From: Magnolia sinica
Taxonomy: Eukaryota; Streptophyta; Magnoliopsida; Magnoliales; Magnoliaceae
Assembly (NCBI RefSeq): GCF_029962835.1
Contig: NC_080578.1
Span: 104,511,759 to 104,575,758 of the forward strand
Reading direction: 5' to 3'
DNA: 64,000 bases
In this document: positions 29,117-62,342 of the stretch, in pieces
Layout: every line of letters begins with the position of its first letter
Position numbering within the stretch: position 1 is the stretch's first letter
Program-made: the position numbers and the translations under genes
Notes under the pieces: generated by a model
Told to the model about the DNA's origin: nothing
Databases searched by the model: none
Seen by the model: the letters and a program-made list of their open reading frames with translations, nothing else

Positions 29117-29159
<43 letters not shown>

Positions 29160-37062: not shown

Positions 37063-37859
37063 ATTGCTTCAATTGCTCTGAAAGCTGTATAAGTTAATAG
37101 TGCTCGTAATTGCATTTTGATAAAACTTGCATGGTTTGATCCATTGAGATCTTACGACCGTTTCATTAGGTGCAGCCGCACGATTTATGGGCTACCATGA
37201 AAACAACATAACCATTCAATCAAAACAGCCTTGAATATGGATGCGCTCTGAGAGCACTAGAGCAATCCTCGTGTAAGAATTGATTGTTTTCAAGCCCAAT
37301 CTTCTGTTTTAACATCAAAGGACCATAATCCCCTCCCTGTTGTAGAGAAGCACGGTAAAGAACAATGGGATGTGATGCCTAACATGGTGTCTATTCATTA
37401 GGTGGGGGTATGCCCGTGATATGAAGGGACAATCCAAAAATCAGCCTGATCTGAAACTACTGTAATTGACACTGTATGGGCTATTCTCCGTGATGTGGCC
37501 CACCTAGGTTTGCCATTGGCATTGAAATGATCACGGTGAACATGATCAGGGACGGCCCACCTTAGTTTTCCATCCGGATGATTAAGATGAAAATGTAGAC
37601 GTCTACATCACAGAACTTGGGTGTTGAAAGTACTGCTTATAGCAGGTGCGGTAGAGGATTCCTGTCAAACGAATGGCCCACCCTCTCTCAAGGGAGGGCC
37701 TGCTCAAAAATCACTGACACCGGTCGCCTCCCAAATGCTAGAGATTTTCGAGGCATGGGGTCCCTCCCATCCACAACAACGGTCTGGATCACTGAACTCT
37801 GGGACCATTTGTCCGAACTGAGACACAGCATGTTGCCGATTTCCACGGGACAAGGATCC

Positions 37860-38078
37860 TACAACGGGCCTTCATCAAGGAAAAGAAGGCAAAATACAAA
37901 CAGCAGAAGGAATCAAAGCATTCGGGAGGGGGAGGCTCAATGACATTGAAAGAAAGCCAAGCATATATTCAATTCGTTGAGAACTGAAAGCAAGATTGAA
38001 CATTACGGATCGGTTACAGGAACTAACACCTTTTACATGGTCATTGTTGTGATGGCCATTGATGGGCCGGAACACCTT
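37860..38078 (-). other. Likely 3' untranslated region of LIFEGUARD copy A
   Basis: Lies directly after the stop codon on the minus strand and is not repeat-like. It has no counterpart after copy B, so it is probably the native 3' end. The polyadenylation site is not located. Confidence 0.4.
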
Positions 38079-41000: not shown

Positions 41001-44000
41001 ACACTTATCAATTACAATATCAATGTAAAATTACCATTGCACATACCCAGCATATGCACTGGAGGGACCCAAAACACTTATCAATTACAATATCCGTGTA
41101 AAATTACTACTGCACATACCTAGTATGGACTGAAGGGACCCACTTGATCCTACCCCAAGTGTTATTGGAGGTAGTATCCCACACAGTTCTAAAAACTCAG
41201 AAATATCGATGCAGACTAGTTTCAAAACTTGGAGAAAAAAAATACTCAATTCAACTTGCCTGAGTTGACACGACTTGACCAGATTTCACCAAGACCCAAG
41301 AAAAACCGTGGTCACAACTCCATGTAAACTCAAGAAGCACTTGACTCAACTCCAAAAAAAAAATAAAAATGGCAGAACTAGATGAAAACCTTTTAAAACT
41401 AGATAAAACTCTTCCCAACATTTTTTTTAATATTAAACGTATATTTTAAATACATTGATTAATACTGAAAAAACTTGGGTTTTAAATATGACGAGAAAAC
41501 AGCCAGAGTTTTCAAGTCGATTCAACTCGACTGGGTATCAAGCCAAATCGATTTTTTTTGTATTTTAAACTATTATATTACGTACCGGTCCCCATACCAT
41601 GTATTGGAATTTGGAAGCAACCTGGGATCCGGGTAAAGGTGGATGAGACCACTCTTTGGGAGACAATCTCCGAGAATGATGCAGATAGAGTATACCAGAG
41701 TCAGCAAACAGACGTCTAAGGATTTCTCAACATCAAGAATTTACCTCTACCATATAAGAGGATACACACAGCGCATACCCAATCCAACAGATGGTTTAGC
41801 ATTCCTAGGCTCATTAACAACGACAAACAAATTTCCATTGCTGCATAATGTGACCAATGGACGGAATAACAGTACCCAAGAGAAGGAAAAAAAAAAAAAA
41901 AACCCCCCCACAAATCAAGCCAAAGATGATAGAGAAAAGAGCACGGGCAGGAAATTCAGGAGCTGACCAATAATATTATCATCAGGTGATGCTGATGTCA
42001 ATAATGGGCCAAAAAGGCTCAGTTTGTGGAGGATAAGGAAATCATCCTTTCTATTTATGAGAAGTTTTAGGGATTTATGATTCATTAATAGATAGAGTCA
42101 AGAGAGGTTTCAAAAGTCCCAAATTTGGGACGTCATCAGTTCAAGTTAAGGACTGTTTTAGTAACAGGTTTCGACCGTTTCAGTGCTTGTTCTTCATTCA
42201 ATAATTAAGGAAAGGGAACTAATCAGGTTATTTTAGAATTGTTTCTTTTCTTGATAACAAGTTTTGTAGCCTTAAATTAGTTTATAAACTAAGTGCTCAA
42301 GTGCTATTTAGTAACACTTCTGTTTAAGATTCCATGCTACAAAAAGAAAAAAATAATAATAATAAAAAAAATTAAAGTTTTAAAAAAAATTAAAAAAAAT
42401 AAAAAATCTTGGTGGTCAGTACATGGACTAGTAATGGACGATTGGAATGAAAAAAATAGTCAGTCCTAATTTGACAAGCAAACTTCTGTTGGCTAGATTT
42501 TACAATTGCTCAATTGATCCAGTTTTGAGCAATGATCCATCCATGGTAGGTCCGAAATTTGGACGGTTTAATTCAGGTTAGTGAATGCCACATCTACGAT
42601 TTGAGTGCCTGGGTATCAACCATCACCTCTGCGGGAGTATCAACTAACTCCCCTTTACATGAATTTGTTTTCTATCAAGCATGCATTGGTTTTCAAAGTA
42701 GGGTTCAAGCCCATAGCTCAATGGTAAACAGGGTGCATTTCAACATTGACGTCTCGTGTTTGAGCCAAGATTTCCCACTTACCTATAAAAAAAGAATTTA
42801 TCAGTTTTCCAAATTCAAGAATTAAAACATTTTGACTTAAAAGCAAACTTAAACTAAGTGTTGTAGCCCCCACAAAAACTTGAAATAATAAGTCAATTGG
42901 ATATGCTCAGGAAATCTAGTAAGTCGTTCATATCAAAGCCTAATGCAACTACAACTCTTAGTTAGCTTGCATGATTTGGACCCTCGAAACTCCAACAAGG
43001 ACCTGTTTGGACACAAGTAACGCAACTTCCACAAAAGTGGGGCTTTCATCAACACACCAAAAGCCAATCCAATCGGTTTTCAGCGAGTGGGCATTTCAGC
43101 GCCTATTTTATCTGTTGACTTGAAAACGATGATTGCAGGTGGGTTTCCAAATGGGCACAAAACCATCGTTTTAGATCGAAATGGGGGTTTCATCTACGAA
43201 CAGTGGTTTTGATAATGTGTCCAGACAGGTACTAAATGTTGTCATTCCCAACCTCCAAACTGTGACCTATAAAATGAATGCATCTAAAACAAACAAACAG
43301 GTTGGTGTGACTAAAGCTAGTTGCATTGCCATCATGGATATGATACCAAAACAACTGTTTTTAATCCATGATTCCACCCAACTACACTCTCATGGGGTCT
43401 GATACTGAGTTCGCCTTCTATGAGAAGATTCCAGGGCACGCTTCAAAAGACGAGGTCCCATGACTCATCCCAAGCCAGTCACCAAACCACACCCCAATCA
43501 TTATAAACTTGGGAAATGGTTCGGTGCAACTAATGCCAGCCATATAACCATTGAGGATGCGACACCAAAACCAATATTTCCAATCCACGATTCCACCCAA
43601 CCGCACTCTTGCAACAACCAACCAAACACATTACAATCCCCGAATCACAGAATTTCAATTCCACAACTCAATTGATTCCGCTCAACGACACTCATGCAGC
43701 GACCAACCAAACACATTAAAAACCCACAAATTGCAGAATTTCAATTCAATTCCAAAATTCAATCATTCTTTCACTCAACAAACCCCCCAAAATCAGATAT
43801 ACCAGATTATTTTTTCCAATATATAGCTAGGGTTAGGGTTTTTCGTTTACTTCCATCTATCCATAATACCATTAAAAAGGAAAAAAAGAAAAGACAAGAT
43901 TAGGGTTTCAATCACATACCACTGGTGAATGCGCACGTCAGCCCGACGGCGAAGCTGAGAGACACCGTAAACACACCAAGGAGAAGGAAGTTCACAGGAT

Positions 44001-44084
44001 GCCATTGATAATAGTAATACAGAGGACAGATAACTGCCAAAGAAGAACAAGAACAAGATGAAGAATCACACAACAGAATCGAAT

Positions 44085-44130
<46 letters not shown>

Positions 44131-44385
44131 ACCAATGAACGGCAGGATGATGATGAAGATGTAGAGGCCCAGCCCCACCCCCGACGAGACGAAGAAGTGG
44201 GAGATAGGGCGGACGGTGACGACTGTTGTAGCAACGGCAATGGTCAGCAGCATCTGGATGGTGAGGATGGAGTATATCTTCCTAATGAAGGCCCACCGCA
44301 GCTCTGGGTTCTCGAGCATCAACGGATAGAGTGGCCGAGCACCGGTCTCGACGTCGCCGGTCTTGCCGTACGCTGGGACCCACAT
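38079..44385 (-). CDS. LIFEGUARD (Bax inhibitor-1 / TMBIM family) protein, copy A, 4 exons, 243 aa
   Basis: Exons in gene order: 44385-44133, 44033-43920, 38937-38780, 38285-38079. All are GT..AG with phases 1, 1, 0, and the sum is 243 codons plus stop, the usual LIFEGUARD length. The start gives MWVPAYGKTGDVETGARPLY; an open upstream extension to 44454 is rejected because family members start here and copy B agrees. Seen: a short soluble head, then about seven hydrophobic segments, with the motifs ELRWAFIRKIYSI (N-terminal), FWAARRGHDFNFLGPFLF (exon 3), YIIYDTDNLIKRYSYDEYIW and LYLDIINLFLSLLTLFRAADS (exon 4). The family consists of multi-pass ER, tonoplast or plasma-membrane proteins that restrain cell death and modulate Ca2+ leak; plant members affect powdery-mildew interaction. 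Intron 2 is ~5 kb and repeat-filled; intron 1 starts with a CT run. It is tail-to-tail with the VAN3-binding-like gene. Confidence 0.93.
39240..39495. mobile_element. MITE-like element with GTAACAG words, in LIFEGUARD A intron 2
   Basis: The left end GCAAGGTATTAGAAAACAG and right end GCCTAATGCCTTGA form an imperfect inverted pair. The interior is rich in GTAACAG/CTGTTAC. The left part is also present at the matching place in copy B (52549-52640). Confidence 0.6.
40140..40365. repeat. GTAACGG/CCGTTAC palindromic repeat cluster
   Basis: About 220 bp carries roughly a dozen GTAACGG or CCGTTAC words, including GTAACGGCCGTTA and CCCGTAACGGCTGTAACGGC. The flanking word AAGGTATTCAGAACG links it to the 39.24-kb element family. 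It can form many short hairpins. Confidence 0.7.
40366..42699. other. Repeat-poor part of LIFEGUARD A intron 2
   Basis: A/T-rich. 40990-41160 repeats a CACTTATCAATTACAATATC / GTAAAATTAC word twice. 42550-42650 is a remnant of the dispersed repeat seen at 11.8 kb. No gene. Confidence 0.55.
42700..42800 (+). mobile_element. Possible second tRNA-related SINE
   Basis: AGCCCATAGCTCAATGGTAA resembles a tRNA A box, and CTCGTGTTTGAGCC resembles a B box ~45 bp later, followed by an A-rich stretch. No target duplication found. It is not the family S sequence and too degenerate to be a tRNA gene. Confidence 0.35.
43300..43740. repeat. Local imperfect duplication in intron 2
   Basis: CAATCCACGATTCCACCCAA ... 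CAACCAACCAAACACATTA ... GAATTTCAATTC recurs two to three times (43310-43390, 43480-43670, 43680-43745). Copy B has a single version near 53925-54010. Confidence 0.6.
44085..44124. repeat. (GA)n microsatellite at the start of LIFEGUARD A intron 1
   Basis: On the gene strand this is a CT run starting about eight bases after the donor GTAATCTT. Confidence 0.95.
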
Positions 44386-44551
44386 CGTTTCTGGATCAGA
44401 GCAGAGTACAGAGAAAGCGTAGACACGCGAGCAGGGAAGGAAATGAGAATTCAAGAAGGAAGAAAATGGCGAGAAAAATGCTGGATTCGTTCGTCGCAGA
44501 GAATTGAATTCGAGTGAAGAAGACGGACGTTTGGAAGCAGAGATAAAAAGG

Positions 44552-45480
44552 GTTAGAGAAAGTTCGAGAGCCTTTAAGACAGAGGATTTTCTAATGGAGG
44601 CTCGCGCAATCTGATCGCTACTTTTTGCTAGACTAAATCATGATCTGGACCGTTGATTTGCATCTTTCCAATGTAGATGGGCCATGGGAAAAAGTAAGGG
44701 AGCCCTTAAGATGGATGATTTTCTAAGGAAGCCTTTGCATCTTTCCAAAGGATTAGAGAAAGTTCGAGAGCCTTTAAGATAGAGGATTTTCTTAGGGAGG
44801 CTTGACACAATTTGGTCACTACTTTTTAATAAATTAAATCATGATCCAGATCGTTGATTCGCATCTTTCCAGTGTAAATGGCTATGGGAAAAAGTAAGGG
44901 AACCTTTAAGACAGGAGATTTTCGAAAGAAGCCTTTGCATCTTTCCAAAGGATTAAAGAAAGTTCGAGAGCCGTTAAGATAGAGGATTTTCTAAGGGCTT
45001 GGGCGCTACTTTTTGCTAGACTAAATCATAATTCAGACCATTTATTTGCATCTTTCCAGTGTAGATGGGCCATGGAAAAAGGTAAGGGAACCTTTAAGAT
45101 AGATGTTTTTTTAAGGGAGCCTCTACATCTTTCCAAAGGATTAGAGGAAGTTGCATGGCCTTTAAGATAGAGGATTTTCTAAGGGAGGCTCGTCCAATCT
45201 GATCACTACTTTTTGCTAGACTAAATCATGATCTAGACCATTGATTTGCATCTTTCCAATGTAGATGGGTCACGGGAAAAAGTAAGGGAGCCTTTAAGAC
45301 GGAGGATCTTCTAAGGGAGCCTTTGTAACTTTCCAAAGGATTAGAAAAAGTTCGAGAGCCTTCAAGTTAAAAGGATTTTCTAAGGGGGGTTTGCGCAATC
45401 TGGTCGCTACTTCTTGCTAGACTAAATCATGATCCAGACCGTTGATTTGCATCTTTCCAATGTAGATGGACCATGGGAAA
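44552..45480. repeat. ~200-bp tandem array, five units, upstream of LIFEGUARD A
   Basis: Units start near 44552, 44751, 44951, 45139 and 45339 with (G)ATTAGAGAAAGTTCGAGAGC. Each continues AAGATAGAGGATTTTCTAAG, TTGCTAGACTAAATCATGAT and CCGTTGATTTGCATCTTTCC; the last is partial. Units are roughly 90% alike by eye. It begins about 170 bases upstream of the start codon, so it sits in the promoter. Copy B has a single unit (54802-54940). Confidence 0.9.
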
Positions 45481-45959
45481 AATATAGCTCATCATAGATT
45501 TCACAGTACATGGATAAGAGATTTTGAAATAATTGTTAGACTAGCATTTCTGAAATCATCTTCATTTTGATAGTGAGAATACGAATGATCAGTTGAAATT
45601 TCAGTAATTAGGATATAAGAGATGGGTCTATCTAGATGAACGGTCTAGATCACGGTGAAAGGAGCGAATAGATGAGCGAGTTTCTATGTGGCGAGCCTTG
45701 CTGCTTAACCGCTTGAGGTGTTTTAGGAACCGTACCAACTACTGCAAAAGGTTCGTGGGAGAGAAAAGGTGCTGACAGGTGGACAAAGTAAAAGCTTAGG
45801 GAGATCTTCGCGCGTGGATAATTAGTGGGGATATTCACGTAGCCATGTGGGGCCCACTGTGGAACAAGGATCAGGTGGGTCCCACCAGTGGAAGCGAGAA
45901 CGTGCTTAGCCCGGAATGGATATTCGAAAAAAAAAAAAGAAGTAATTACCATAGGGTAC
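45481..45959. repeat. Upstream segment shared with LIFEGUARD copy B
   Basis: GGATAAGAGATTTTGAAATA, GATGAACGGTCTAGATCA, GGCGAGCCTTGCTGC and GTGGGGCCCAC..GTGGAAG occur in the same order at 54960-55345. This marks the far end of the local duplication. Confidence 0.8.
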
Positions 45960-47149
45960 AGTTACCTACGGCCCACCGTAATGTGGGAATGCAATCCAAT
46001 CCGTCCAGTAGATGCTCCGCACATTGGGATTCGATCTGGAAACCCCACACGTGGATAACTCAGCTGGGCCACACCTAAGGAAACATTGGGGGATGTAGGG
46101 TAGGGAAGCTATAAACTTCGAAATGAAATGCGGGGTCCACCGTATAGTTTACATGCCATCAATGCCGTTCATCAGGTGGGCCCCACCAAAATGAAGAGAA
46201 AGGTGATATTTGGGTCATTCCAACAAAGTGAGATGGGGCCAATACGTATGTATTAGGAGTGATTGTGCATTGCTCGAACATGTAGAGGATTGGACTGATC
46301 TTGGATCGCTATGATTCTTTTCATGTGCGGTGGATATGAGGAGTTCAATCAGATTTACGGTTTGGATTCTACACAGACATCACCTGCTGGACCACATAGA
46401 TCGCACGTGCTATGTGATCATTCCCCAATAAATCAGATCCATCCATTTTATATTTAATCTAGACGTGTGGCCATCCTGATGACCAGATCCGCCTGATTTT
46501 CGGCCAACCTGAGGAATGGCACTGGACATTAGACGCGTGTCAGTTACGCGCGCGTGTGGCGAGAACTGCCGCGCGTCGCCTTCGAATTTCCGCATGTGTA
46601 TGACGTCCAGGCGCAGGGAGCTCTCGCGTTCGGGACAAACCATCAAAGGACATCATGCGGTATAGGAGGAATACCGGAAATATGGTAGAGCAATCTTCAT
46701 AGAACACGTGGTAAGGTGATGCATCAATCGGGTCCACCCATATGAAGGGAAAAGGACCGATTACTTATTTTAAAAATTAAAAACATGAGAAAATCCTATC
46801 TGTTTGTCAATTTTACACTCATGATCATCATATTCGACGGTTGATATTTTTCTATTTCAACTGTCAATTTATTTTCCTTAGAACAGATTGAAAGATCTTC
46901 GAACTGTTTGATTTTTGATATATAAACCATCCTGGCTAGATAGATATATATGGATGGACAAGATTGATAATTTATACTTCCAAGTGTCCTGTACAGATAG
47001 ATATTGCTCTACCATGTTACGGTTCTTCGTGCTGCACCATATCATTTCCAACCGCGAATGATGCTTCTAGGCTTCTCTCGTCCTGTGGCCCTGGTGATTC
47101 CATACGTACCCTTCTACGCCTCTCTCGTTTCTTCGGAAGCGGATTGCGT
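45960..47149. other. Intergenic with foldback remnants
   Basis: 45965-46195 has CGGCCCACCGTAATGTG and CATCAGGTGGGCCCCACC arms of a decayed foldback element. The rest is unique-looking; short frames near 46.4-46.7 kb have no homology. Confidence 0.5.
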
Positions 47150-47605
47150 GGTCCGGGGGGGCAGGGATCTGTGGGGCCCACCATGATGTAAATGTTTTAT
47201 CCACACCGTTAATACTTTTTATAAGACTATTTTGAGTTATAATCCGAGAAATTATGGAGGTCCACAGATAAAGTGGACCACACAAAAGGAAGAAGAGGTG
47301 ATAATGACACCAACAGTTGAAACTTTCTATGGGCCACCATGATGTTTTTTAACCATCCAACCTATTCATAAGGTCATGTAGACTTGAATGAATGAAAAAA
47401 AAAATATCAGCTTGATCCAAAACTTCTACAGATCCCAAGAAGATTTTAATGGTGGGTATTCAATCCCTACTTTATGGTCCACTTAAGCGTTATTCTGCAT
47501 TGTTTTTGGCTTTAAATACTAAAATGATATCTGTAAATATGTATGGACCGCGTGGATAAAACCATTACATCATGATGGCCTTCACAGAGCCCTGCACGGA
47601 CGGAA
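47150..47605. mobile_element. GC-foldback MITE (family A), best-preserved long form
   Basis: The left arm CTGTGGGGCCCACCATGATG, TTTTATCCACACCGTTAAT, ATAAAGTGGACCACACA; middle GATGTTTTTTAACCATCCAACC and TCAGCTTGATCCAAAACTTC; right arm ATGGACCGCGTGGATAAAA and CATCATGATGGCCTTCACAG. Both ends carry GCAGGGATCTG/GAGCCCTGC-type terminal words. Confidence 0.8.
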
Positions 47606-47689
47606 TCGTTCGGGCGGGGGTACGACGCAAACCGCTTCTTCTCGTTGGATTCGCTTCTAAGTAAGGTAAAAGTTTTGATACTCTGGAGA

Positions 47690-48065
47690 ACACGGTGGAT
47701 GATAATCAGGCCCTGGAAAATGAATATATTATATACAATAAGTCAATATTTAAACTTTAAATGTGATTTTTTTCATGTAGATATATCATTGAGTGAAAAA
47801 TTACGCATATACGGTTACCTGACTATCATATTGGTGGACATTTATTGGACGGTTAACAATGAAATTATCCAATGGTTCTATTTCCATGAGCAAGTGTTCG
47901 CTATCAGATGTTAGGAACGTTCTAGCAATCTAATATTCTGATATTGACTTAGACATGTTTGAGTTGAAGATTTAGTAGCTGTTATTTGAGTAAGTTTGCA
48001 CCACGTGTATGACTACTCAAGTGTATGCGTATCAAGCGTTATCCATGCATGAGAATTATTACAGG
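47690..48065. repeat. Dispersed non-coding repeat (relative in VAN3-binding intron 2)
   Basis: GGTGGACATTTATTGGACGG, GTTAACAATGAA, AATGGTTCTA, AACGTTCTAGCAATCT and GTGTATGCGTATCAAGCG follow the same order as 29600-29800. Unclassified. Confidence 0.55.
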
Positions 48066-48189
48066 AATCCGGGGAAAGAGAACGCGGATTCGGTGTGGCC
48101 GGAAAACAAACACGACTTCCGTGAGGCCGTGACCGTGGGGCCCACCTTGTTGTGTGTGTTATAAATCCATGCCGTCCATCCATTCTAAT
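48066..48189. mobile_element. Partial GC-foldback MITE (family A), one arm
   Basis: GTGGGGCCCACCTTGTTGTG followed by TATAAATCCATGCCGTCCAT. The other arm is missing. Confidence 0.6.
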
Positions 48190-50344
48190 AGGTCATTGTT
48201 GGGCATGATCTCGAAAACACTTCACCCCATGTTGATAAGCTGATAGAGTTTGAACAGGCAGGTGGACAATTACACTCTGATCATAAACCCTAAACTCAGA
48301 AGTTTAAATCTTAAGAAAGTCAATCCTAAAATTCTAAAATCAGCTCATCCAACCCAGCTAACTCAGTCAATCCGATTAGCCTAATCCGAAACCTTAGGAA
48401 CCCAAAACCCTAGAGCATCAATTCGATAAGTCAACTCATTGAGTCAACTCACCCGGTCAGCCTACTCAACCAACAACCCCGTCAACTTACCTAATTAAGT
48501 CCAAAACTAATCTCAATCGAAGAAATGACCTAAATTAGATGTATGGTTAGATGCATACTGCTCGTTGAATATTTAAGACTTAAATTTGTCAGAACCCTAA
48601 GTCTTAAGGTTTTTATTATTATTATTATTATTTAAAATTTTAATTTTATCAGAACCCTAAGTCTTAAGTTGAATAGACCATTGGATGGGTTATACCAATC
48701 TAAGACAATCTTAGGCTAAGAATCATGCGCTAATTTCCTATGGTGAACCATTGGATGGTTGAGATCCGATTTGATGTGGATCGACAATCAAAATCCGAAC
48801 ATCAGATTATGCTGACAAACAAGTTTGATTATTAATCTAACCATCTGATGAGCCGAATTGATCAATCAATGTTAATCATTATAATTGTTTATAAATGGTG
48901 TATGGATGGTTCGGATCAAGTTGATCAACAGTTGTCCCTTAAAAATAATTAAGAGGTGATTAGTGGTTGGTCTTGATCCATCTATCAAACATAATTTGGA
49001 TGCTCATTAAAGTAAATAAATCCTCAAATTTTCGATTAAATATGTCATAATATGACTTTCTTCAATACGAGCTTTGATTCAATTAAAGGTGTCGAAAATA
49101 GTCCAGCAACCAAACTATGTGAAATTCGATTTTTTTTTTTATTCGATCTAAGTATGTTTGATTCGATCGAAGTCGATTATATCGAAAAGTCCCGTCGATT
49201 CGATTCATAGCTTTGTCAATTCGATTGACGGATATCTAGACAATTTTGTTAACTTCCTAGCTTTGATAATTGGTTCAATAAATTCATGATACATATAATA
49301 TAGTTTACAATCGACCATTAATAGGTTGTTTTAAGGTGGTCAAACACTTTTAATTGATCAAGTGGGTCCCACAACAACCTATGAGAATCGAGAACAATAT
49401 GTTAAGGGTTGGGTCCAAAGGAATTAATCCAATTGATTGATACATTTTTTGACCTTGTTATGGAAACTAGATTAATCAAAGGTGGTCCCCACCAAGTGAA
49501 CCAATAGGATCAGTCAGTAATCTCATTTATGTGGTTTGAAGAAGTTCTAATTCAAATTAAACTGATTGCTTTACGAAATCATCTCTACTGAATCAAGGTA
49601 AGTGATCCCGATATGTTTTTCCTCTATGAAGTTAAAATAGATTCATTGTTGATATGTTTGTATGTTTACTTTGATATTGTGTTTATGTTCTCTTACTTGA
49701 TTTGATTACTACATTGATAACGATGATTAGTTACATCATTTGCTTTGATGTATTAATATGATTTTACTGTATAAATGCATCTTGTGATTTGATTGGTTGA
49801 GTGGATATAACTATGAATTGATGTCTATAATGACATAATCAAATGACATAAAAATTGTGTTGATTATAATCTAAGAATTATAACGATTTTTACAATTCAA
49901 GGTTTATAACTACTTTGCTATAATTCTGCATCCATTTACTGCATCCACAATTCGTGCCTGAGTTCATGGGAGACTTCCCTGAATGACATTCCTAGTAAAA
50001 TCGTTACTAGATGCCTATTATACTAGTGGAAGCCTACTCATGAAGTAGATGCGAGACTTGCCCATACCTACCAAAAGGCAGTTGTAAGTTAATGGGTTTG
50101 CAACTCAAGCAAAGTGGACAGATTCCTACTTAATGCATCCACACACATTAATACATATGCACAACATTTACAATTATGAACTTATATTATATATGATTAA
50201 TTGTTGTTACTCTATTTTAATTTGATACGAAGAACTATGTTGGGACTTCTCACTAGGCCTAGCCAACTTACCATGTATTGATGTAAAACTTTACAGATGT
50301 GACTGAGGATGAACCATTGACTTAAGAGTAGCAAGACGTGATCA
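48190..50344. mobile_element. Possible degraded LTR-retrotransposon sequence
   Basis: A long A/T-rich non-coding stretch whose later part (about 49.6-50.3 kb) resembles in style the LTRs of plant Ty3/gypsy elements: CTCACTAGGCCTAGCCAAC, TACAGATGTGACTGAGGATG, and long TTGATT-rich runs. No ends or partner LTR found. Low certainty. Confidence 0.3.
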
Positions 50345-50930
50345 AGCTAGGAAAAGACCCATGTAACACGTGGCCCTATATGACATTAGAAGAAGTGGCA
50401 GCTTTGGACCAGCCATGATTAGTAGTGATATATCATCCACATATACAAGTAAAATAGTAAATTCTTGTACAGAATGACAAACAAAGAGAGAAGTATCGGC
50501 AGAAGATCCAACAAATCCCAAACCTGAAGATAATTTGTAAGGCGAAGATACCACACACGTAGAGCCTGTTTAAAACTATATAAGGCTTTGCTGAAGCGAC
50601 AAACATAATGAGGATTAGATATATCCACAAACCCTTGGGGTTGTGTCATGTCCACTTCCTCAATAAGAATGTCATGAAAGAACGCATTTTGCATTAAGTA
50701 GGCATATAGCCCAACCATAATGAAGGGCAAGAGAGAGAATCAACTGAACCATAATATTCTTGACAACAGGACTGAATGTATCACCATAATCAATACCAAG
50801 TTGCTGATGAAAGCGTTTCACAATGAGGCGAGCCTTATAATGATTAATAGAGCCATCGGAACATTGTTTAACCTTAAAGACTCACTTGCAGCCCTACGAG
50901 GTTTTGCCCAGACTGAGTGATCCAGCTTCA
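50345..50930 (-). mobile_element. Small fossil fragment of a Ty1/copia reverse transcriptase
   Basis: On the minus strand the RVT_2 landmarks run in order: KWVFK-like start, HQQLGIDY, TFSPVVK, then PQGF, ALYSFKQALR and a YVDD region. Only a piece of the reverse-transcriptase domain remains. It is old and carries several breaks. It is unrelated in position to the element at the left edge. Confidence 0.8.
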
Positions 50931-51424
50931 AGGGGTTGGCTTGGGAACTCACTCACCCAAGGGTTAGGAAATCACTCACCCAACAAGGTATAGCTTGGGG
51001 ACTCACTCACCTAACAAGAAAGGAATCACTCACTCACAAATACAAAGTTTGTAGAAAATAACTCAAAGATTTGATCCATTTTCATTACAAAATAGGTCCT
51101 TTTATAGACCAAATACAACCACCCCTCATAAATACATTAATAACAACCATGATCAGTTTCAATGCATTATTACATATTTTCAAAAAAAAAAAAAAACTTC
51201 CAAAATAATTCCAGATACATTTCCAATTCGTACTTCAATTTCAAACTTTTTATTTTCCAAGCATACAACATAGTCCCAAAGCCATGCATCATGAATGCAC
51301 TTGGGCTAGAAATAATGGTTGAATACTGAGGCTTGCGCCTAGTTGATGGGTTGGGCGTTCGCCTTGAATTGGGCTTGCATCAAAGAGGCACACCAAAGTA
51401 CCTTGCTTTTGTCTAATTCAAGTA
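50931..51424. other. Intergenic next to LIFEGUARD copy B
   Basis: 50950-51035 has ACTCACTCACC five times with irregular spacing. No similarity to the 3' region of copy A, so the duplication seems to end near the stop codon. No gene. Confidence 0.55.
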
Positions 51425-52961
51425 TCATCTACTCTTAGCTCTGAAGAGTGAAAGCAGTGCCAAGAAAAGGTTAAGGATGTCGAGATACAAAGTGACAGAG
51501 GCCCATATATACTCATCATATTTGTAGTGCTTCATCAGGCCGCTATATATCATCACTGATAGTTTACCCATTGGGAAGAAGATCTGCAAAATCAGAATCA
51601 GGAGTGTCATGCCTTAATTCAGTACAAGAATACAACACTCCCACAAGATTCAAAAGGTTTTGGAACTTAGAACCATAGTAGTTCCTCTTCGACTAGCCAG
51701 GGTTCCAGATGGGTATCACCCATCTCCTTGATTCTTGTTCTAGGTTTGGACATGGGAGTCATGGACTCAGATCCATGGTTTTAAGACTCCCACAAATCGA
51801 AAACTCAACTCGGCTCGGTCAGCTGCTTGGACTAGATCGATCTGAGTTCTAGTTCAACACCATCAATAACCCAGATGATCACCCCACTAGGGCAAGTCAT
51901 TCCGAGTATTTTAACCATGCTCAGAACATAGCTCATGGACCATATGCAGCCGAGTTGCAACCATACCTAACACCAATAACGTATGGGGTTTGATGAGCTA
52001 AAGATGTCGCATACCTGGATGACGATGAACAACATCAGCACCGATATGGTAGAAAACACGAGCGTTCTAAGGAAGTTGAAATCTTGGCCTCTCCTAGCAG
52101 CCCAGAACGTGTAGAGTGTGAGGCTTATGACCACCACAGTCGTTAAAATAACAGATTCTAAAATAACCTTCCCTGTTTGCAATGAAAACGATTCAATTCT
52201 AATCAGATCTCAAGGTCACAAAGAACATTGAATAGAATAATGCAGACCCAAATCAGGAGTCCAAGATCACATGGTTTCTGGTACATAAACATAAACGTGC
52301 AGTAAGTTTAGGCTAAATGCAGGACATGGTTTCAAATAGGGGATATGGACTTGTATGACAACTGAGGAATTATACGATCCTCCACATGAGGATACACCAG
52401 ACCATTGGGCTGTTGAACCAGCAACGGATAGGGTCCATGCCCCAAAAATCTCCAAACTGGAACTGGTCTTACGTGGACCCGGCATTTTTTAAAATTTTGA
52501 ATGCAGACTCTTTTCGCATCTCTCTTCTTAGCCGTCCATTTGCAACAAGGTATTAGAAAACAGTTACGTAATGGTCATGATGGTTGTTACATAACAGTGA
52601 TGGTGAGACACATTCATGGTACAAGGCTGTATGCAACAACCCCAAAATTTGACATAGGTAGTACACACAGGCACTCCCCACTTAAACTCTTAAACTAAAT
52701 TAAATATTTTATTTTGTCATGAATAAACGAGATTGACTGTTAAGATGCATGGCAAAGGCTCTCTTAATTATGAAAAGGGTTGTACACGAGCCAAGCTATC
52801 TCAAAAAGCTCGCTCGGCTTGACTCATACATGCATACATACATACATACATATATATATAAAAGTTAAAATTTAAAAACTACTCTACCCGTTCGTCCCTT
52901 TCTTACCATTTCCCTTAACCCAACTCGTTGTGAGCTCCACACACACACACACACACACACA

Positions 52962-53008
<47 letters not shown>

Positions 53009-53139
53009 CGCGCCTGCCACTCGCCTAAGCTCGACTCAACGTTCGCCTAACCGGTCTCAGCCATATGGCCTGCACTCGGCCACTCACCTGAGCTCTTTCT
53101 CTCTTAGCACCAACAACAAGGTACTTATATGGCTTTATT

Positions 53140-53189
<50 letters not shown>

Positions 53190-54341
53190 GAATATTTGAT
53201 TTGGGAGTTGAGTTAGGTGCGGGTTGGGTCCATTGAGTCAACTGACTGAGTTGAATCGGGTGTAGGTTGGGTCGGGTTGCTAGGTTGAGTTGGGTTGGGA
53301 GCAGGCTCGACTAGAGGTAAGTTTGCCTTGACTCGATTCACCAGCTCACCTCGAGCTCAACTCAAAAGATTTGGTAAACAAGCCAAGCTCCAATGGTAAG
53401 CTCGAAGCCGAGCTCGAGGAGAGCACGAACAAGTCAAGCCACAAGCTCGGCCCACCTCGACTCGACTCGACTCAGCTCAATGTACAACCCTAGTTATGGG
53501 AGAGGTTGAAGGATCAATTCTTGCCACTCTGGTAAGAAAGGAATGGGATTCCCTTTTCTTTTCTGTTCTTTTTTTTTTCTTCTTCTTTTTTTCTTTTCTT
53601 TTTTTCCTTTGTGCAGTCAACTTATTTTTGTCGGATCTATGCTACAACTAAGATCCCATGCAAAATCTCGTCCTAGAGATTGATTCAGGACTATATGATT
53701 TTGTCAGATCTGTACGAATTATATGATTCCTAAGGCCAAAACATACCAAGGTCCCAAATTCCAATTCGATCTGAATCGTATGCTTGGTTCTTTGATGGAT
53801 CATCGGATGCATCAGATCCCATCTATGCCATCTATGTTAATTCTGGGATAAATCTCAACAACATCCAGAATTCTAGATGGGTCTGATCATCTGGTGGGCC
53901 ACATTGATCAAACAAGGTTAACTGTTAAATTGATTCCACCGAACAGCACTCTCGCAGTAACCAATTACCAAACACACATTAAACCCCAAACTGCAGAATT
54001 TCAATTCAATTCCATAATTCAATCATTCTTTCAGTCATAAACAACCCAAAATCATATATACTAGATTCTCTTCTCCAATTTATAGCTAGAGTTAGGGGTT
54101 TTCGTTTAATTCCATCTATCCATAATACCATTAAAAAAGAAAAAAAAAACAAGATTAGGGTTTTACAGTTTGAGTCACATACCGACGGTGAATGCACACG
54201 ACAGCCCGACGGTGAAGCTAATAGACACTGTAAACAGGCCAAGGAGAAGAAAATTCACAGGATGCCGCTGAGAATAGTAATACAGAGGACATAGAACTGC
54301 CAAAGAAGAACAAGAAGAAGAATCACACAATAGAATCGAAT

Positions 54342-54378
<37 letters not shown>

Positions 54379-54639
54379 GAGAAGATTACCGATGAACGGC
54401 AGGATGATGATGAAGATGTAGAGGCCCAGCCCAGGCCTCGACAAGACGAAGTTCGAGATGGGGCGGACGGTGACGACTATTGCAGCGACGGCAATGGTCA
54501 GCAGCATCTGGACGATGATGATGGAGTATATCTTCCTAATGAAGGCCCACCGCAGCTCTTGGCTCTCGAGCATCATCGGTTGGAGGAGTCGAGCACCGGT
54601 CTCAACGTCGCCGGTTTTTCCGTACGTTAGGGCCCACAT
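51425..54639 (-). CDS. LIFEGUARD (Bax inhibitor-1 family) copy B, 4 exons, 226 aa, internally deleted
   Basis: Exons in gene order: 54639-54390, 54296-54183, 52172-52015, 51583-51425. Splice sites and phases (1, 1, 0) equal those of copy A, and the frame is open for 226 codons. It starts MWALTYGKTGDVETGAR. Against copy A it lacks one residue in exon 1 and 16 consecutive residues in exon 4 (copy-A residues ~192-207), which removes the membrane segment ending in YDTDN; MIYSGL runs straight into MKHYKYDEYIW. FLGPFLF of exon 3 has become FLRTLVF, and the last residues are AKSR instead of AADS. About 13 of 53 exon-3 residues differ, 11 of them in its second half. An expressed variant, a dominant-negative form or a decaying duplicate are all possible. 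I favour relaxed constraint, but the intact frame and splice sites keep it from being called a pseudogene. Confidence 0.85.
52549..52640. mobile_element. Left part of the GTAACAG MITE shared with LIFEGUARD A intron 2
   Basis: CAAGGTATTAGAAAACAG, CATGATGGTTGTTACATAAC and AGTGATGGTGAGAC match 39240-39305. The right part is gone. Confidence 0.75.
52939..53008. repeat. Compound microsatellite (AC)13(TC)14(TG)8
   Basis: Three dinucleotide runs abut without spacers. The AC and TG runs are complementary in inverted orientation, so they can pair around a TC loop. Confidence 0.95.
53139..53187. repeat. (TA)n microsatellite
   Basis: About 49 bases of TA inside the hAT-like element. Confidence 0.95.
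53493..53920. other. Remainder of LIFEGUARD B intron 2, no gene
   Basis: Polypyrimidine run near 53560-53610, then GATC-rich sequence. 53925-54170 aligns with copy A 43680-43905. Confidence 0.55.
54343..54373. repeat. (GA)n microsatellite in LIFEGUARD B intron 1
   Basis: Same position as in copy A, a CT run on the gene strand close to the donor. Confidence 0.95.
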
Positions 54640-54801
54640 TGTTCTTTGATCAGAGCGGAGTACCTAGAAAGAGTAGACACGCAGGCAAGGAAGGAGATGA
54701 GAATTGAAGAAAGAAGAAAATGGCAAGAAAAATGGTGGCTTCGGTCGTCGTAGAGGATTAGATTCGATTGAGAGAGACGTTTGGAACGAAATATAAATAG
54801 G

Positions 54802-54940
54802 ATAAGAGAAAGTACGACGGCCCTTTAAGATAGAGCATTTCTAAGGGAGGCTCACTCAATCTGCTTGCTGCCTTTTGCTACACTAACTCATGATCCAGAT
54901 CGTTGGTCTGCATCTTTACAATGTTAATGGGCATGGGAAA
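54802..54940. repeat. Single unit of the upstream repeat (LIFEGUARD B)
   Basis: ATAAGAGAAAGTACGACGGC, AAGATAGAGCATTTCTAAGG, ACTCATGATCCAGATCGTTG. One unit only, against five in copy A. Confidence 0.85.
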
Positions 54941-55364
54941 ATCTCTCTTATCATAGATATAAGATAACATGGATAAGAGATTTTGGAATAATGGTTAAAC
55001 AAGCATTTCTTAATTCATCTTTATTTTTATCGTGAGGATGTGAAATTTAAATTTTAATGATTAGGATATATGAGATGAGTCCCTCTAGATGAACGGTTTG
55101 GATCATCAAGAAGTGTGCGAAAGGAGCAAATAGATGAACGAGCTTCTATGGGGCGAGCCTTGCTGCCTGACAGTTTGAGGAGATCTGGGAACCGGGCCGC
55201 TGGGTGCAAGAGGTTTGTTGGAGAAAAACGTGCTGACATAGTGACGCGTGGATAAAATAAAAATATAGGGAGAACTTCGCCAGCAGAGAATCTGTGGGAA
55301 TCTTCATTTAGTCCTGTGGGGCCCACCAGTGGAAGGGAGAACGTACCCTGCCCGTCTCTGGCCA
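54941..55364. repeat. Upstream segment shared with LIFEGUARD copy A
   Basis: Aligns with 45500-45900 (GGATAAGAGATTTTGGAATA, AGATGAACGGTTTGGATCA, GGCGAGCCTTGCTGCC, GTGGGGCCCACCAGTGG). Confidence 0.8.
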
Positions 55365-55495
55365 CGAATGGGCCCCACCTTGATGTATCTGTTTATCCAG
55401 TACGTCCATCCCTTCTTTTAGATTGTTTTAAGGTATGTGCATTAAAATGAGGTGGATCCAATGCTCAACTGAAACACACCATATTTAATATATTG
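55365..55495. mobile_element. Partial GC-foldback MITE (family A), left arm
   Basis: AATGGGCCCCACCTTGATGT, TTTATCCAGTACGTCCATCC, TGAGGTGGATCCAATGCTC, then stops. The right arm is missing. Confidence 0.65.
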
Positions 55496-55538
55496 TATTA
55501 AATGTAGAAAACATTAAATGCAGGTTGCATTAAATGTA

Positions 55539-56318
55539 GGATCCTTAGTGCCTGTTTGGGAGCGTGGAATCCGAGCCCCTTAGATTCGGAACCGCCAGGA
55601 TTGGAAACCCCTAGGATTGGCAATCCTCCCCTGTGTTTGGCACCCTAGAGGAGTGTGAATCAACTTTAATTCAAAGATACATATGCATGGTATATATAGA
55701 GGAGTTTGAATTTAATTACTAAATCAACTATAATATTCCTAATTAGTGAGATATATAATTTTTGACGCTATGGTTGTGATAAAATGATGAAATTCCAAGT
55801 CTCGGATGGATCACAAGCACAAGATCATGTCTGAGTGACTAACCAACAATTTTTAATCATTGATTAATATGGACAATGTTTGGTTGGTGCTGGACAATGT
55901 TTGGACGGTGTTGATTTACATGGACAATGTTTGGATGGTGTTGATCATCATTAGTGGCCCATGTACCCAATAGAATGATAGTGCACAGTGACATACATGT
56001 TACACCTGCAACTATTGAAATGATTTTAGGTGTAATCCAAGCTCTCACCATGGATTACAAACCCCCTCAAAGAGGGGATTGGAAACCCCCTAGATTGGCA
56101 ATATAATCCCCCAATCCCCTCCAAACAACCAAGGGGGTTTCCCCCTCCAATCCCCTCCAATCCACGGTGCCAAACGACCCCTTACTCTTGCTCGGGTGGT
56201 AGACTCTCAGGAGTTTCAATACCCGGTCAGGGGTTTGAGCATCCTTAGGTGGTGAAATCCCACTACGGCCTGAGCGTGTGGGGGTGTGTTTGTGCGTGTA
56301 AAAAATAAAAATAAAAAT
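55539..56318 (+). mobile_element. tRNA-derived SINE (family S), split by a Tourist-like element
   Basis: The first nine bases (GGATCCTTA, 55539-55547) lie left of the inserted element and the rest (56185-56318) right: CTCTTGCTCGGGTGGTAGAC, CAGGGGTTTGAGCATCC (B-box region), GGTGGTGAAATCCCACTACG, GAGCGTGTGGGGGTGTG and an A-rich tail. Exact 14-bp copies of TTGCATTAAATGTA flank the whole at 55525-55538 and 56319-56332. Confidence 0.93.
55548..56181. mobile_element. Tourist-like (PIF/Harbinger-type) MITE inserted in the SINE
   Basis: 634 bp with ends GTGCCTGTTTGG and CCAAACGACCCC, flanked by TTA at 55545-55547 and 56182-56184. A TTA/TAA 3-bp target duplication is the PIF/Harbinger signature. Subterminal GGATTGG/CCAATCCCCTCC words are inverted. 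The interior has three TGGACAATGTTTGG repeats (55868-55945). No transposase frame. Confidence 0.88.
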
Positions 56319-56332
56319 TTGCATTAAATGTA

Positions 56333-56389
56333 AGATTTATATGTGGTGGAGGCAGAATGCGTCCTACCCTGTCTCCAGCTAGGAACGGC
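56333..56389. other. Short spacer
   Basis: Host sequence after the SINE target duplication. Confidence 0.5.
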
Positions 56390-56740
56390 TGGATATGTGA
56401 GTGGCCACCTTTACGTATGGGTCTTATCCACACCATCCATCCATTTTTTTAACCTAAAAATGAGGCAGATCCTAGGCTCAAGTGGACCACACCACCGGAA
56501 GCATTAGTGATAATGATTTTCACTATTGAAGCTTCTTTAAGGCCCATCGTGATATTTATTTTCCATCCAACGTATTCATGAAGTCACCTATACCTGGTTG
56601 AAATGAAAACAAAAATATTATGTCCACTTGAGCCTTGGATCTTTCTCATTTTTGGGCTTATATCCTAAATTGATTGAAAAAAAATAGATAAGTGGGATGG
56701 ATATGACTCATGCATTAGGGTGGCCACTCAAAGCTCCTTC
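56390..56740. mobile_element. GC-foldback MITE (family A), terminal GC words weakened
   Basis: GTGGCCACCTTTACGTATGG, CTTATCCACACCATCCATCC, AATGAGGCAGATCCTAGGCT and CAAGTGGACCACACCACC, with inverse counterparts ending GCATTAGGGTGGCCACTC. Confidence 0.75.
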
Positions 56741-57540
56741 CCGCTCCATCGGGTAGGACACAATACGCATTGGTATGTGGTATGTACTAGAACATTAGGT
56801 GCTTATTTTTGCACATATACGGTAACTCCTCAAACTTTTCAATACTGGAGTATTGAAAGTTTTAAGTGTTACCATGAAATTTAATTTAATATATACATAT
56901 ATATGTCACAAATTTAGCTTATCCTAACCTTACATCTATTCTCTGACCTAAATTTGACCGTTGGGAATAATCTTCATCCATAAATCAAGTCATCCAACCG
57001 TTGATTTTTAGGACAAGATTATTATATATCCAAGTATTCTCACTTTTTCATTATACCAACTATTCAATCAACTATTCACTGCTGGGTAAAGATATCTGAC
57101 CGTCCATTTTGAGTTTGGACCACCCGATCATGGTAAACTAACTACCTGATCTCTACATCGCTCGTACATGTATTGAATCGAGATGTTAATCCGTTCATCT
57201 TGTTCACCACCTATGAATATGCTTAACCCATCATCAAAACTATAATTTAAGGAACTTACACATGTAAACAAGTCACTTAAATCTAACGGTATATATGTTC
57301 TACCTCTTGATCACTCAAAAAACCTACTTGTATTTATCCGTTTATAAAATTGACTGTATAATTACCTACATACATGATCAGAGTACTAACCATCAAGTTT
57401 TTCTATTTTTAACATGTCATCTAACTGTTCATCATATTTGGATCCACCTAACAGGCTACCTAAATATTAGAATGAACAGCTCAGTTCGAAGATCATAACG
57501 TATACGCCACAACTACCGGTTGACTTCTCTATTAGATATA
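56741..57540. other. AT-rich intergenic, no gene seen
   Basis: No gene, RNA or repeat boundary recognised. Confidence 0.55.
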
Positions 57541-58640
57541 TGAAAGCGTTGATTTAGACCTCGGGGTGGTATAGCCCATTAAAAAGGCATCTTGGTCATC
57601 TATAAGCAATCAAGGCTCAAAATAGTGCGATGGAAAGAGAATGAAAAATAAAGAATATCTGTGAAATTTTAATACATTTAAATAGTATAGTCCGACGTTA
57701 CAGACGATGGAAGTTGGAAAAATAAAAGATGTCATTAACCTGTAGCCTTGAATTTTAGATCACATGATTCCCATTATCCATTTCATGTAAAATTTTATAA
57801 TATGCCTATTTATCATAAATTAACCATACACGTTGAATTTCATCGCTTAGATCATTGTAAAAGTGGCCTAATTGAATCATTAGCCCCTCAACCAATGATT
57901 TTAGTATCCATCGAGTGAAGAAAGCTCGTAGGCAGTCGTAGTAGAATATTTCCCTTCGTATGAATGACTTGGATTTTCCATCATATAAACCAAGTGTAAA
58001 ATATGAGGTAGGCTTTTTCGTTAGGCCCGAAGTTATCAGTTTTATGCTTACCAACTCTTTTTAAATCTGGAGCTTCCCATTAACCCACTTTACACCATCA
58101 ATCACAACTCAAATTTGGACCACACTTTAGCCTCGCATGACTATAATATCATACAAAATTCAGACCCCGATCGATCTATAATCTTACACTGTTGAATGAT
58201 GACTGACTTAACTCTAATTCCTTCCTTTTGGTGGAAAAGATGAAATTTCAGATGTCTTTTCTACCATTGATCAACCACCAACTTTTGTCCAACTGTTTTT
58301 CTATTATGACTACACATTTCTCCCAAATTTGGTCCCTGATTATTAAGTGTGTACTGTTAATTGAGATTAAGTTCGTTTTGGCACCCGTTAGGAGAATTTT
58401 TAAGATAGGTCAATCTAAATTTCGGGTTACCAAGAAAATTATATAGCCCAAATCTATTCAATAACCCCGACACACTGGACAAATTAGATTTAAAGAAAAA
58501 TCGCTAGAAAAAGTTAAATTGGAGAAACTCAATCCTAGTGGGATGTGAAACACATCCCCTCTTACATGCCCACTCCTTTATAAAAGGAGTGTGCATCCCT
58601 TCTCCACTCATACGCCCAATTTCCCAATATCCAAGGAAGA

Positions 58641-58718
<78 letters not shown>

Positions 58719-60176
58719 TAGACGTCATCATCATCTTCCTTCTCCACATGGATGTTGTCTCCTTCTTGCTCAAGCGATGTCGTGGTTCATGTAAAATTTT
58801 TTTCCTATATCGAGATTTAGGGTTTAGATCTAAGGCAAATGTGAGGGATTCCTTTAAAGCTTACACTAATTTGAGTCAGTATGATTTATCTTATTTTTGC
58901 ATAATTTCATATTACTGTGATTTTTCATGCAATTGATTGATTTACCATTATCAAATATTTATTTTTTAAAAAATTATCATTAAGGTATGATTTTAATTAT
59001 GCGTGATTTTTATGAATTTATTGGGTGTGATGGATACAAGCCTTGCCCTTTGCCAATTTTGATAGCAATGTGTGCTTCTACTTTATATTGAGTTGGCCTT
59101 TTGCTCCTGTCCCCTTAATCTTGTTGAGTTAGCCTATTTGCTACTCATATCTTTTATTAAGATAACTTAATACTACTTTTCTCCTTTATTAAGTCAACCT
59201 TGTGTTACATCCCTTTATAGCTTGGGCATTTGTCTTGGAATTTCAAAACCCTCGTGGTTCGACTTGTTTCTTTATTGATGCAAGTGATGTGTTATATGCC
59301 TCATATATAGTGGTTCGTATATTTTATCGTGGATGTAATGTGCTCTGGATAATGACTCTCTTGGTCGACACATAATTTCATGAATTTTGGTAGTGGTGCA
59401 CAAATCGATGTAAGTAATTCGCAATGTGTGTTACATCACTTTTGGAATTGAATGTCGTAAATAGTCGCTCCGTGAACAAATCGTATTACGTAATTCATCT
59501 GATCCATGTGTTATGCCGTCTTGAGGTGTTCACGTAAATCCACGGTAGCATTGGACACACCGACGAATCTCCATGGTATGGGATACGGGGTAAGCCGGGT
59601 CTTCTATGAATTATATTCCACATTGTGATGATCACTACATATGATGGACCGCACACATTTTGCTAGGTATATATATATATATTGATTGCGCATACTAATA
59701 CCACTCGTAGTGGTGGAGTACGAGACGTATCAGAACCCTCACATTATTCTTATCAATCTCTTGAATTATCGTTAATATTGAAGGATAACCATCACTATGG
59801 GTAGGGAATTAACCCTCTCCAACCATACAGATGTTGCAGGTGAATTACAGGTTGACGATACGGATGATAATCATTCTATGGAAGATATGTTTCAATAATG
59901 AAGAAGAATGACACTGAAATTTATTTATTTATATGTTTTCTATTGTTTACATTAATATAATGTAATAAGCTCACATTGAGAGGGTGTTTGAAAATTAGTT
60001 GAACACTTTTTAGTCAATAATAAATACAGTTGATTTTACTCTTGTGAATGTAACTGGATGTGATATAAATGGAAAAAAAAAAGTGCGATTTTAAAGCATC
60101 CAATTTTTACATCATTAACATCCAGAATTCTCGGGCACGAGTATATATTTGGGCCACAAAAATTCGGGATGTTACA
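57541..60176 (+). mobile_element. Probable solo LTR of a Ty3/gypsy-type element
   Basis: Starts TGAAAGCGTTGATTTAGACC with GGGGTGGTATAGCCCATTAA shortly after, and ends AAAATTCGGGATGTTACA, a 3' end typical of plant chromovirus LTRs. TG..CA limits hold, with TATA on both outer sides (57537-57540 and 60177-60180). A TATAAAAGG promoter-like box lies at 58577 and a (TA)n(GA)n tract at 58645-58715. No internal coding region or second LTR is in view, so it is a fossil. Limits and family are inferred. Confidence 0.5.
58645..58715. repeat. Microsatellite (AT)n then (AG)n
   Basis: About 36 bases AT followed by about 35 bases AG, downstream of the TATA-like box of the LTR. Generates spurious repetitive frames. 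Confidence 0.95.
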
Positions 60177-60249
60177 TATACATTAGACAAGGGAGGGGCG
60201 CGGATTAGGTACTACCCCAGCCTGTTTGGAGCTCGGGACAGGCGGAGGC

Positions 60250-60690
60250 TTTGAGGGCTACTAAGGGGCCACCGTGGTGTATGAATCTTATCAACACCGT
60301 CCATCCCTTTTTTCATATAGAGTACTATACCAAAAACAAGGAATATACAATTCTCAAGTGGACCACACCATAGGAAGCAGCGGTGTTAAGGACGCCTACC
60401 GTTGAAACCTTCCTTAGGCCCAATGTGTCGTTTATTTTCCATCCAACCCCTTGATATGCTCATATACACCTGGATGAAGTGAAAAAACACCTTGATCTAA
60501 AACTTTTGTGGTCCCTAAGAAAATTTCAACGGTAGGAATTTAATCACCAATGTATGGCCTATTTAAAACTTTTATCTTCGCTATATTTGAAATAATATTC
60601 TATAATAATATGAAAAAATGAATGGACAGTGTGGATAGAGTTCATACATCACGGTGGCCCCTCAGTGGCGCTCGGATCCCTAGTGATGAT
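60250..60690. mobile_element. GC-foldback MITE (family A)
   Basis: Left arm AAGGGGCCACCGTGGTGTAT, TTATCAACACCGTCCATCCC, CAAGTGGACCACACCATAGG; right arm TGAATGGACAGTGTGGATAG, CATACATCACGGTGGCCCCT. Arms match well over ~45 bases, and the middle has TCCATCCAACCCCTTGATAT and ACCTTGATCTAAAACTT. Confidence 0.8.
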
Positions 60691-61548
60691 TCGTTCGTTG
60701 CCCAATTAGGACTAAACTTTGTAGCAGGACAATCATGATGTATGGGATAGGTGTCTATTCATTGCTCGATCAAAACTGGACGTCATGGTGAGACGACTGA
60801 TGGGGGGTAGATATTTGTCAATTTGTTTATTGCTTTATTGGAACCAGGATTTGTGGTGAGATGACTGTTGAAAGCCTATTCGTGGTCTTGATCAGAACCA
60901 AACACGTAGAAAGACTGTCGTGGACCGATCCAGCGAGATGTTGTGGATGAATGGTGGAGAGCTAAATTAAGGGTTAAAAACTAAGGGTCCCATGCTATGA
61001 GTAACGATGGGAAGAAACTGAACTAAAATAAAAAGATAAATATCTATGTTGGATAGGAAAGTAAAGACATGTTTGATTGTATTGGCATAAGGCATTAAGC
61101 TCTTCTTCAACTGCTGCTTTTATAGGCTTCCGAGATGCGGTAACCTTGCGTAGTAGCATAGGAAAGATCCGAACGTTCGACGGTGCAAATCTTATTGGTT
61201 CTTCTACGACAAGTTAGCTTATCGTGTATGGTCATGTGTATAAGAGAGACTCGTGAGTCCTCATGTTTTTGGACTCCCATAGTAGAAAGTTGTTGGAGTC
61301 TTTACATCACTTGGATTTGTAATCTTTAAGGAATTACTTTTGACGTGGCTTTAACATTTAATGCTATATAGAAATATTCTTTGATAAAATATTAACATTT
61401 AATGCTTGGAGAGAGAGAGAGAGAGCGAGAGAGAGAGAGAGAGAGAGAGAGTTGCTTGAATGAGACTCTTGTTTTTGATAAAGAGTACTTTTGATAGGAA
61501 TCTAGTATTTAATGTTCTTTCATATGTACGTTTCTTACTCCTCTTTAA
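60691..61548. other. Intergenic, no gene seen
   Basis: Contains a (GA)n tract at about 61407-61451. TTTAGGAATTA/TATTAACATTTAATGC words repeat loosely at 61340-61520. No gene. Confidence 0.55.
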
Positions 61549-61734
61549 GGGAGCGTTTGACTCACGGTATTAGATGGGATTAGGTGGGATGTAAGTACAT
61601 TAGGTCCCGTGTAAATTTCATCTAGTATTTGGGGAGTTGTGTTTGTCTCATGATATCCCATGATAATAGGGGACAATTCCTGTCACATGCAATGATTATA
61701 TATTTTTTTTTAATCCCATGCGCCAAACACTCCC
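61549..61734. mobile_element. Tourist-like MITE, 186 bp
   Basis: Ends GGGAGCGTTTGAC and GCCAAACACTCCC, flanked by TAA at 61546-61548 and 61735-61737. The interior shares GATGGGATTAGGTGGGATG with the neighbour. Confidence 0.85.
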
Positions 61735-61737
61735 TAA

Positions 61738-62339
61738 GGGCGTGTTTGGGCAGTGAGATTGGAAGCGATTAGGTGGGATGGGATTCAAAATACATAATTA
61801 TTACCCATGGCAGGGATTGTCCCCTGTTGCCATGAGATAAGATTAATGCCATGCTTTGTTGATAATACGGTGGTACATTGAATGAATATACCCACCATCA
61901 TTTGAAATTACTGAGAATAACACACATGTGTTATATCTAAACTGTTCATTTGTTTTGTAACCTCATTTTATGGCATGGGCTTAAAAATGAGGTAGATCCA
62001 AAACTTATGTGGCCCCAAAGAAGTTTTCAATGGTAAGTATTCAATCCCTGTTGCTTTCTATGGTGGGGTCCACTTGAGCTTTAGATTTACCTGATTTTTT
62101 GGCCCATGCTCTAAAATAATCTTGAAAAATGGGTGGACGATGTGGATATAGCCCACACATCATGGTGGGACCTACACAACTTGCTAACATTGAGTGAAAT
62201 TGGCACGGGACCCAATGCAATTCCATCTAATCTAATTCCAAGCTTTTCCAATCTTCCCAAACATGGAGTGGAATTGGCATAGGACCATATGAATCTCATC
62301 TCACCTAATCCCTTCTAATCCCACTGCCCAAACACACCC
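61738..62339. mobile_element. Tourist-like MITE, 602 bp, with a nested GC-foldback
   Basis: Ends GGGCGTGTTTGGGCAGTGAG and CACTGCCCAAACACACCC; the arms match over ~43 bases (GATTAGGTGGGATG/CATCTCACCTAATC). TAA flanks both sides (61735-61737 and 62340-62342). Confidence 0.88.
61915..62185. mobile_element. GC-foldback MITE (family A) nested in the Tourist-like element
   Basis: AATGAGGTAGATCCAAAACT ... GGTGGGGTCCACTTGAGCTT ... TGGGTGGACGATGTGGATAT ... CATCATGGTGGGACC. The left terminal GC word is degraded. Confidence 0.7.
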
Positions 62340-62342
62340 TAA

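Follow-up and report, generated by a model that had tools for sequence, protein, structure and literature searches.

We propose that the second of two tandem LIFEGUARD genes in Magnolia sinica is a coding duplicate under relaxed constraint, late in functional loss after losing the channel fold, a reading to which we give a probability of about 0.6. The two genes, copy A (38079-44385) and copy B (51425-54639), lie on the minus strand of the window, the 64,000-nucleotide stretch of NC_080578.1 analysed here (Table 1), and encode proteins of 243 and 226 amino acids, respectively. Both match the Pfam profile PF01027 (Bax1-I) above the Pfam cut-off of 34.1 bits, A with 159.7 bits and B with 107 bits, and therefore belong to the TMBIM/LIFEGUARD family by descent. 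All six introns, three per copy, run GT...AG with phases equal in A and B, and the frame of B is open, containing no frameshift, internal stop or broken splice site. The exon coordinates and intron borders thus bear out the initial annotation, which had credited B with four exons, conserved splice phases and an open frame. That B is more than a chance resemblance is indicated by its profile score, by the correspondence of all four exons and by a frame free of frameshifts and stops, the last judged by the simulation described below. Intron 2 is more than twice as long in A (4982 bases) as in B (2010 bases). Intron 1 (A 44034-44132, 99 bases; B 54297-54389, 93 bases) is stop-free and a multiple of three in both copies and contains a CT microsatellite that reads as a Ser-Leu run; a transcript retaining it would remain in frame in A and B alike.

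Five family genes, LFG1-5 or GAAPs, are reported from Arabidopsis (PMC5864889), and four of nine members are described as four-exon genes in cauliflower (PMC11395134), a structure shared by A and B. With these plant genes (AtLFG1-5; TMBIM4-like) copy B has in common the PF01027 match as well as the N-terminal and helix sequence, but it differs from them in the absence of the first gate aspartate along with helix 6 and in carrying a new C-terminal tail.

Table 1. Coordinates of copies A and B and of associated features within the window
Feature	Position	Strand	Remark
Copy A exon 1	44133-44385	-	253 bases
Copy A exon 2	43920-44033	-	
Copy A exon 3	38780-38937	-	
Copy A exon 4 with stop	38079-38285	-	
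Copy B exon 1 with start codon	54390-54639	-	250 bases; one codon shorter than in A
Copy B exon 2	54183-54296	-	
Copy B exon 3	52015-52172	-	helix 5; G158R, F160L, L161V, I166S, S172I (A numbering)
Copy B exon 4 with stop	51425-51583	-	
Deletion junction in B (48 bp, A residues 192-207 missing)	51538/51539	-	
48 bp present in A and absent from B (residues 192-207, including D203)	38190-38237	-	
Last codons and stop of B, past the end of A-B homology	51425-51437	-	
Stretch upstream of B with homology to the tandem unit that precedes A	54799-54941	-	
Decayed remnant of a Copia reverse transcriptase (RVT_2), 3' of B	50672-50881	-	44.7 bits

The lesion that sets B apart is an in-frame gap of 48 bp in exon 4, whose exact placement is ambiguous by a few bases and whose breakpoints share a few bases at most. 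It removes most of transmembrane helix 6, including D203, a segment that is essential in the family. The topology of the two proteins was derived from hydropathy and from alignment to BsYetJ. By hydropathy only (Kyte-Doolittle, window 19), A has seven hydrophobic segments and B six; the best 19-residue value at helix 6 is 1.83 in A and -0.03 in the remnant left in B. BsYetJ, a bacterial TMBIM protein of solved structure (PDB 4pgr and others), aligns with copy A over residues 43-239 and matches D203 and D226 of A to its D171 and D195, the pair reported to form a di-aspartyl closing latch (PMC4416878). Copy A contains both of the paired aspartates of helices 6 and 7, and B keeps D226 without any counterpart of D203 and thus of D171. 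The initial annotation had stated that B is 16 residues short, that a membrane segment is gone with them and that one acidic gate residue is lost and the other retained, and on each of these points the gap, the hydropathy peaks and the BsYetJ alignments agree with it. The initial annotation also expected the C-terminus of B to be flipped across the membrane, which is an inference in a family of disputed topology.

How strongly is the missing aspartate conserved? Of 80 bacterial relatives fetched, 10 were dropped by a filter, and all 70 that were aligned have Asp at the position of D203, a residue that was in no search pattern; the pattern did hold LYLD, so that the conservation of D226 is biased by selection. 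A search of viral contigs for close relatives gave eight pattern hits and no relative by tblastn. In the same alignments the latch arginine of BsYetJ, R60, corresponds to Tyr93 in A and to Ser in B, so that even copy A is without a complete latch. Mutation of the D195 counterpart is reported to abolish the anti-apoptotic action of a viral GAAP, and that aspartate is the one retained by B; the same source describes the topology of the family as disputed, BsYetJ having seven helices and GAAPs, according to one proposal, six and a re-entrant loop (PMC4416878). Copy B has neither the seven segments nor the paired aspartates of the TMBIM/LIFEGUARD channel fold.

The alignable stretches of the two copies span A 38092-45864 and B 51438-55334. 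Within them, identity is 82-85% in the three larger intron pieces that could be aligned, a difference of ~15-18%, which marks the duplication as old and shows that B is neither an allele nor a collapsed-assembly copy of A. The upstream region of B aligns to that of A at 76-77%. A 200-base unit occurs in ~4.7 tandem copies directly upstream of A (44547-45482), and a single homologous stretch is present in B; a promoter expansion in A is a possible interpretation of the tandem units. At the other end of the gene, A-B homology stops at about B 51438, three codons short of the stop of B. Copy B ends in KSR and a stop and A in ADS and a stop, endings that show no clear homology to each other, and the 3' flank of B is unrelated to that of A. 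When A 28000-38300 was compared with 46000-64000, only simple-repeat and short matches were found besides exon 4, and none adjoined the stop of A. The last codons and stop of B are thus probably new, and this new 3' end may mark a duplication breakpoint or a replacement of the original end by other sequence. Three AATAAA-type motifs lie within 400 bases of the stop of B, and none of the four motifs sought is found at A; a transcript of B, if there is any, could still be processed, with the qualification that such motifs are common by chance.

The substitutions between the copies fit a relaxed constraint. Between A and B, dN is 0.130 and dS 0.257, a ratio of 0.505 by NG86 (bootstrap 0.33-0.78); LWL85, YN00 and maximum likelihood return 0.43, 0.57 and 0.59, respectively, so that the four methods span 0.43-0.59. 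Taken exon by exon, NG86 gives 0.67, 0.29, 0.82 and 0.33, with few sites in each. If the two branches are assumed equal, the pairwise value would imply a ratio of 0.91 for B were A at 0.1, and of 0.71 were A at 0.3. The proteins differ at 52 amino acids, 43 of which could be scored on the bacterial profile: the relatives favour the A residue at 25 of these and the B residue at 12, with six ties (sign test p 0.047), a polarity that is weak because it rests on distant bacterial sequences. At strongly conserved sites the family residue is found in A at six (158, 160, 161, 166, 172, 220) and in B at two (177, 189), a difference that is not significant (p 0.29). The harsh changes G158R and I166S fall in helix 5 of B. 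Nevertheless, the first 190 residues of B score 83.6 bits against PF01027, versus 87.2 bits for the first 191 of A, and A stripped of residues 192-207 scores 114.9 bits versus the 107 of B, so that most of the loss of family score in B is due to the deletion. Methylation-driven decay of B was considered and rejected: in the coding and flanking sequence that was compared, B has 20 CG to TG/CA changes and A 19, an equal loss that leaves no mark of silencing.

Has B drifted neutrally since its birth? The intron pieces contain 21 gaps in 1140 aligned bases, 17 of which are not multiples of three. We simulated the frame over 4000 trials at one half of the intron divergence and one half of the rate of indels, the latter taken from 20 gaps in 1047 bases with the microsatellite intron 1 excluded. 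The frame stays intact in 45% of trials when 0.1 of the history is neutral, in 21% at 0.2, 10% at 0.3, 2.2% at 0.5 and 0.25% when all of it is. At 0.9 neutral the main run gives 0.4%, rising to 1.9% with half the indel rate and to 3.1% with slower substitution as well. The rarity of an open frame in the neutral simulation argues that B was long kept as a coding gene, and any neutral drift is, under this model, probably recent. The silent duplicate suggested by the initial annotation is accordingly unlikely over the whole history of B, given the intact frame and the simulation, and is possible for recent time.

Based on these observations, we envisage that for most of its history B continued to encode a protein, under a constraint weaker than that of the family. 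Later, the 48-bp in-frame deletion would have taken most of helix 6, and the original 3' end would also have been lost. A seven-helix di-aspartyl pore could not form once helix 6 and its aspartate were missing, and helix 7 would be left inverted or unpacked. Any B protein would most likely be unstable and degraded, although the gene has not yet acquired a stop or frameshift. Mutation of a pore aspartate is reported to make mouse TMBIM5 unstable (PMC9206080); the mutated site is the counterpart of the aspartate that B retains, so that the parallel is indirect. This reading is supported by the loss of a hydrophobic segment and of an aspartate found in 70 of 70 relatives, by the dN/dS of 0.43-0.59, by the residue polarity of 25 versus 12, by a frame that full-length neutral drift would rarely leave intact and by the lost 3' homology. 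It is weakened by the lack of any stop, frameshift or broken splice site, by the score kept in the first 190 residues, by the retention of D226 and by the equal CpG loss, and also by the AATAAA-type motifs near the stop of B, the p of 0.29 at conserved sites and the reliance of the polarity on distant bacteria. Partly decayed tandem gene duplicates are a recognised category. Copy B resembles them in having a relaxed dN/dS, in the loss of a conserved segment and in 3' homology that is cut short, with transposon debris nearby, but it differs in being still free of stops and frameshifts. Of the hallmarks of a pseudogene, B thus bears a missing family-essential segment and shows neither a frameshift or stop nor a damaged splice site.

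Could B instead be a working LIFEGUARD with six helices and no paired gate, either a decoy or regulator that shares the partners of A or a protein that has taken on a new role? We regard this as unlikely. The frame and splice sites of B have stayed intact for longer than neutrality predicts and the family score of its first 190 residues is kept; however, all 70 aligned relatives possess D203 and its segment, and B is altered at conserved helix-5 sites. A six-helix TMBIM protein is known in the human Lifeguard beta-isoform, which like B is one helix short of the full form and is reported to be anti-apoptotic when overexpressed (PMC4148365). That isoform is cut before helix 7 and comes from the same gene as the full form, whereas B is a separate gene in which helix 6 is lost and helix 7 kept, and losing one middle helix would invert helix 7. 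IRE1 is reported to be bound by Arabidopsis GAAP1/3 (PMC5864889), and the channel may not be needed for this interaction. Viral GAAP monomers are reported to work (PMC3642348), so that poisoning of an oligomer is not required; together with the reported instability of the pore-aspartate mutant TMBIM5 (PMC9206080), this leaves little support for the poisoned partner that the initial annotation had put forward. The narrower proposition of a stable six-helix decoy, having an inverted helix 7 and one gate aspartate, incapable of pH-controlled conduction and competing with A for IRE1-like partners, strikes us as distinctly improbable.

Two further explanations dispense with an altered protein. In one, B is transcribed and remains untranslated, acting, if at all, via RNA, for instance through small RNAs against A. 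The tandem position, the transposon debris 3' of B and the upstream sequence that still aligns at 76-77% would suit such a role, but both copies lie on the minus strand with no inverted arrangement and their introns differ by ~15-18%, and we consider it more improbable again than a stable decoy. The other attributes the 48-bp gap to an assembly or sequencing error or to a rare haplotype, the normal B having seven helices. The gap is known from one assembly; yet it is clean, in frame and set in non-repetitive coding sequence, and the bases on either side of it carry ordinary substitutions relative to A, which shows that B was not patched with sequence from A. This is the explanation that we hold least probable of all.

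What are the implications of a probably decaying LIFEGUARD copy? As a decaying duplicate, B is ordinary in kind. In the literature covered, consisting of titles and the beginnings of abstracts with subscription papers thinly represented, no plant LIFEGUARD gene lacking helix 6 was visible, which falls short of proving that none is described. An expressed and stable B would provide a natural test of whether cell-death suppression by TMBIM proteins needs the paired aspartates or seven helices, and the intact A next door would then serve as its matched control. There is a modest chance that B makes a six-helix protein, one that would merit testing at the bench.

Elsewhere in the window, Copia elements and an Auxin_canalis gene give the DNA the look of a flowering plant. 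A Copia-type element occupies 558-4026, its Pol_BBD, gag_pre-integrs and RVT_2 matches falling in different open frames. A direct repeat (12993-13920 and 15688-16504; 644 bases at 97% identity and 185 bases at 94%) represents either the product of recent duplication or the two ends of an element. On the plus strand, open frames at 28116-28577 and 32368-32913 match Pfam Auxin_canalis (PF05703) and are probably exons of one gene.
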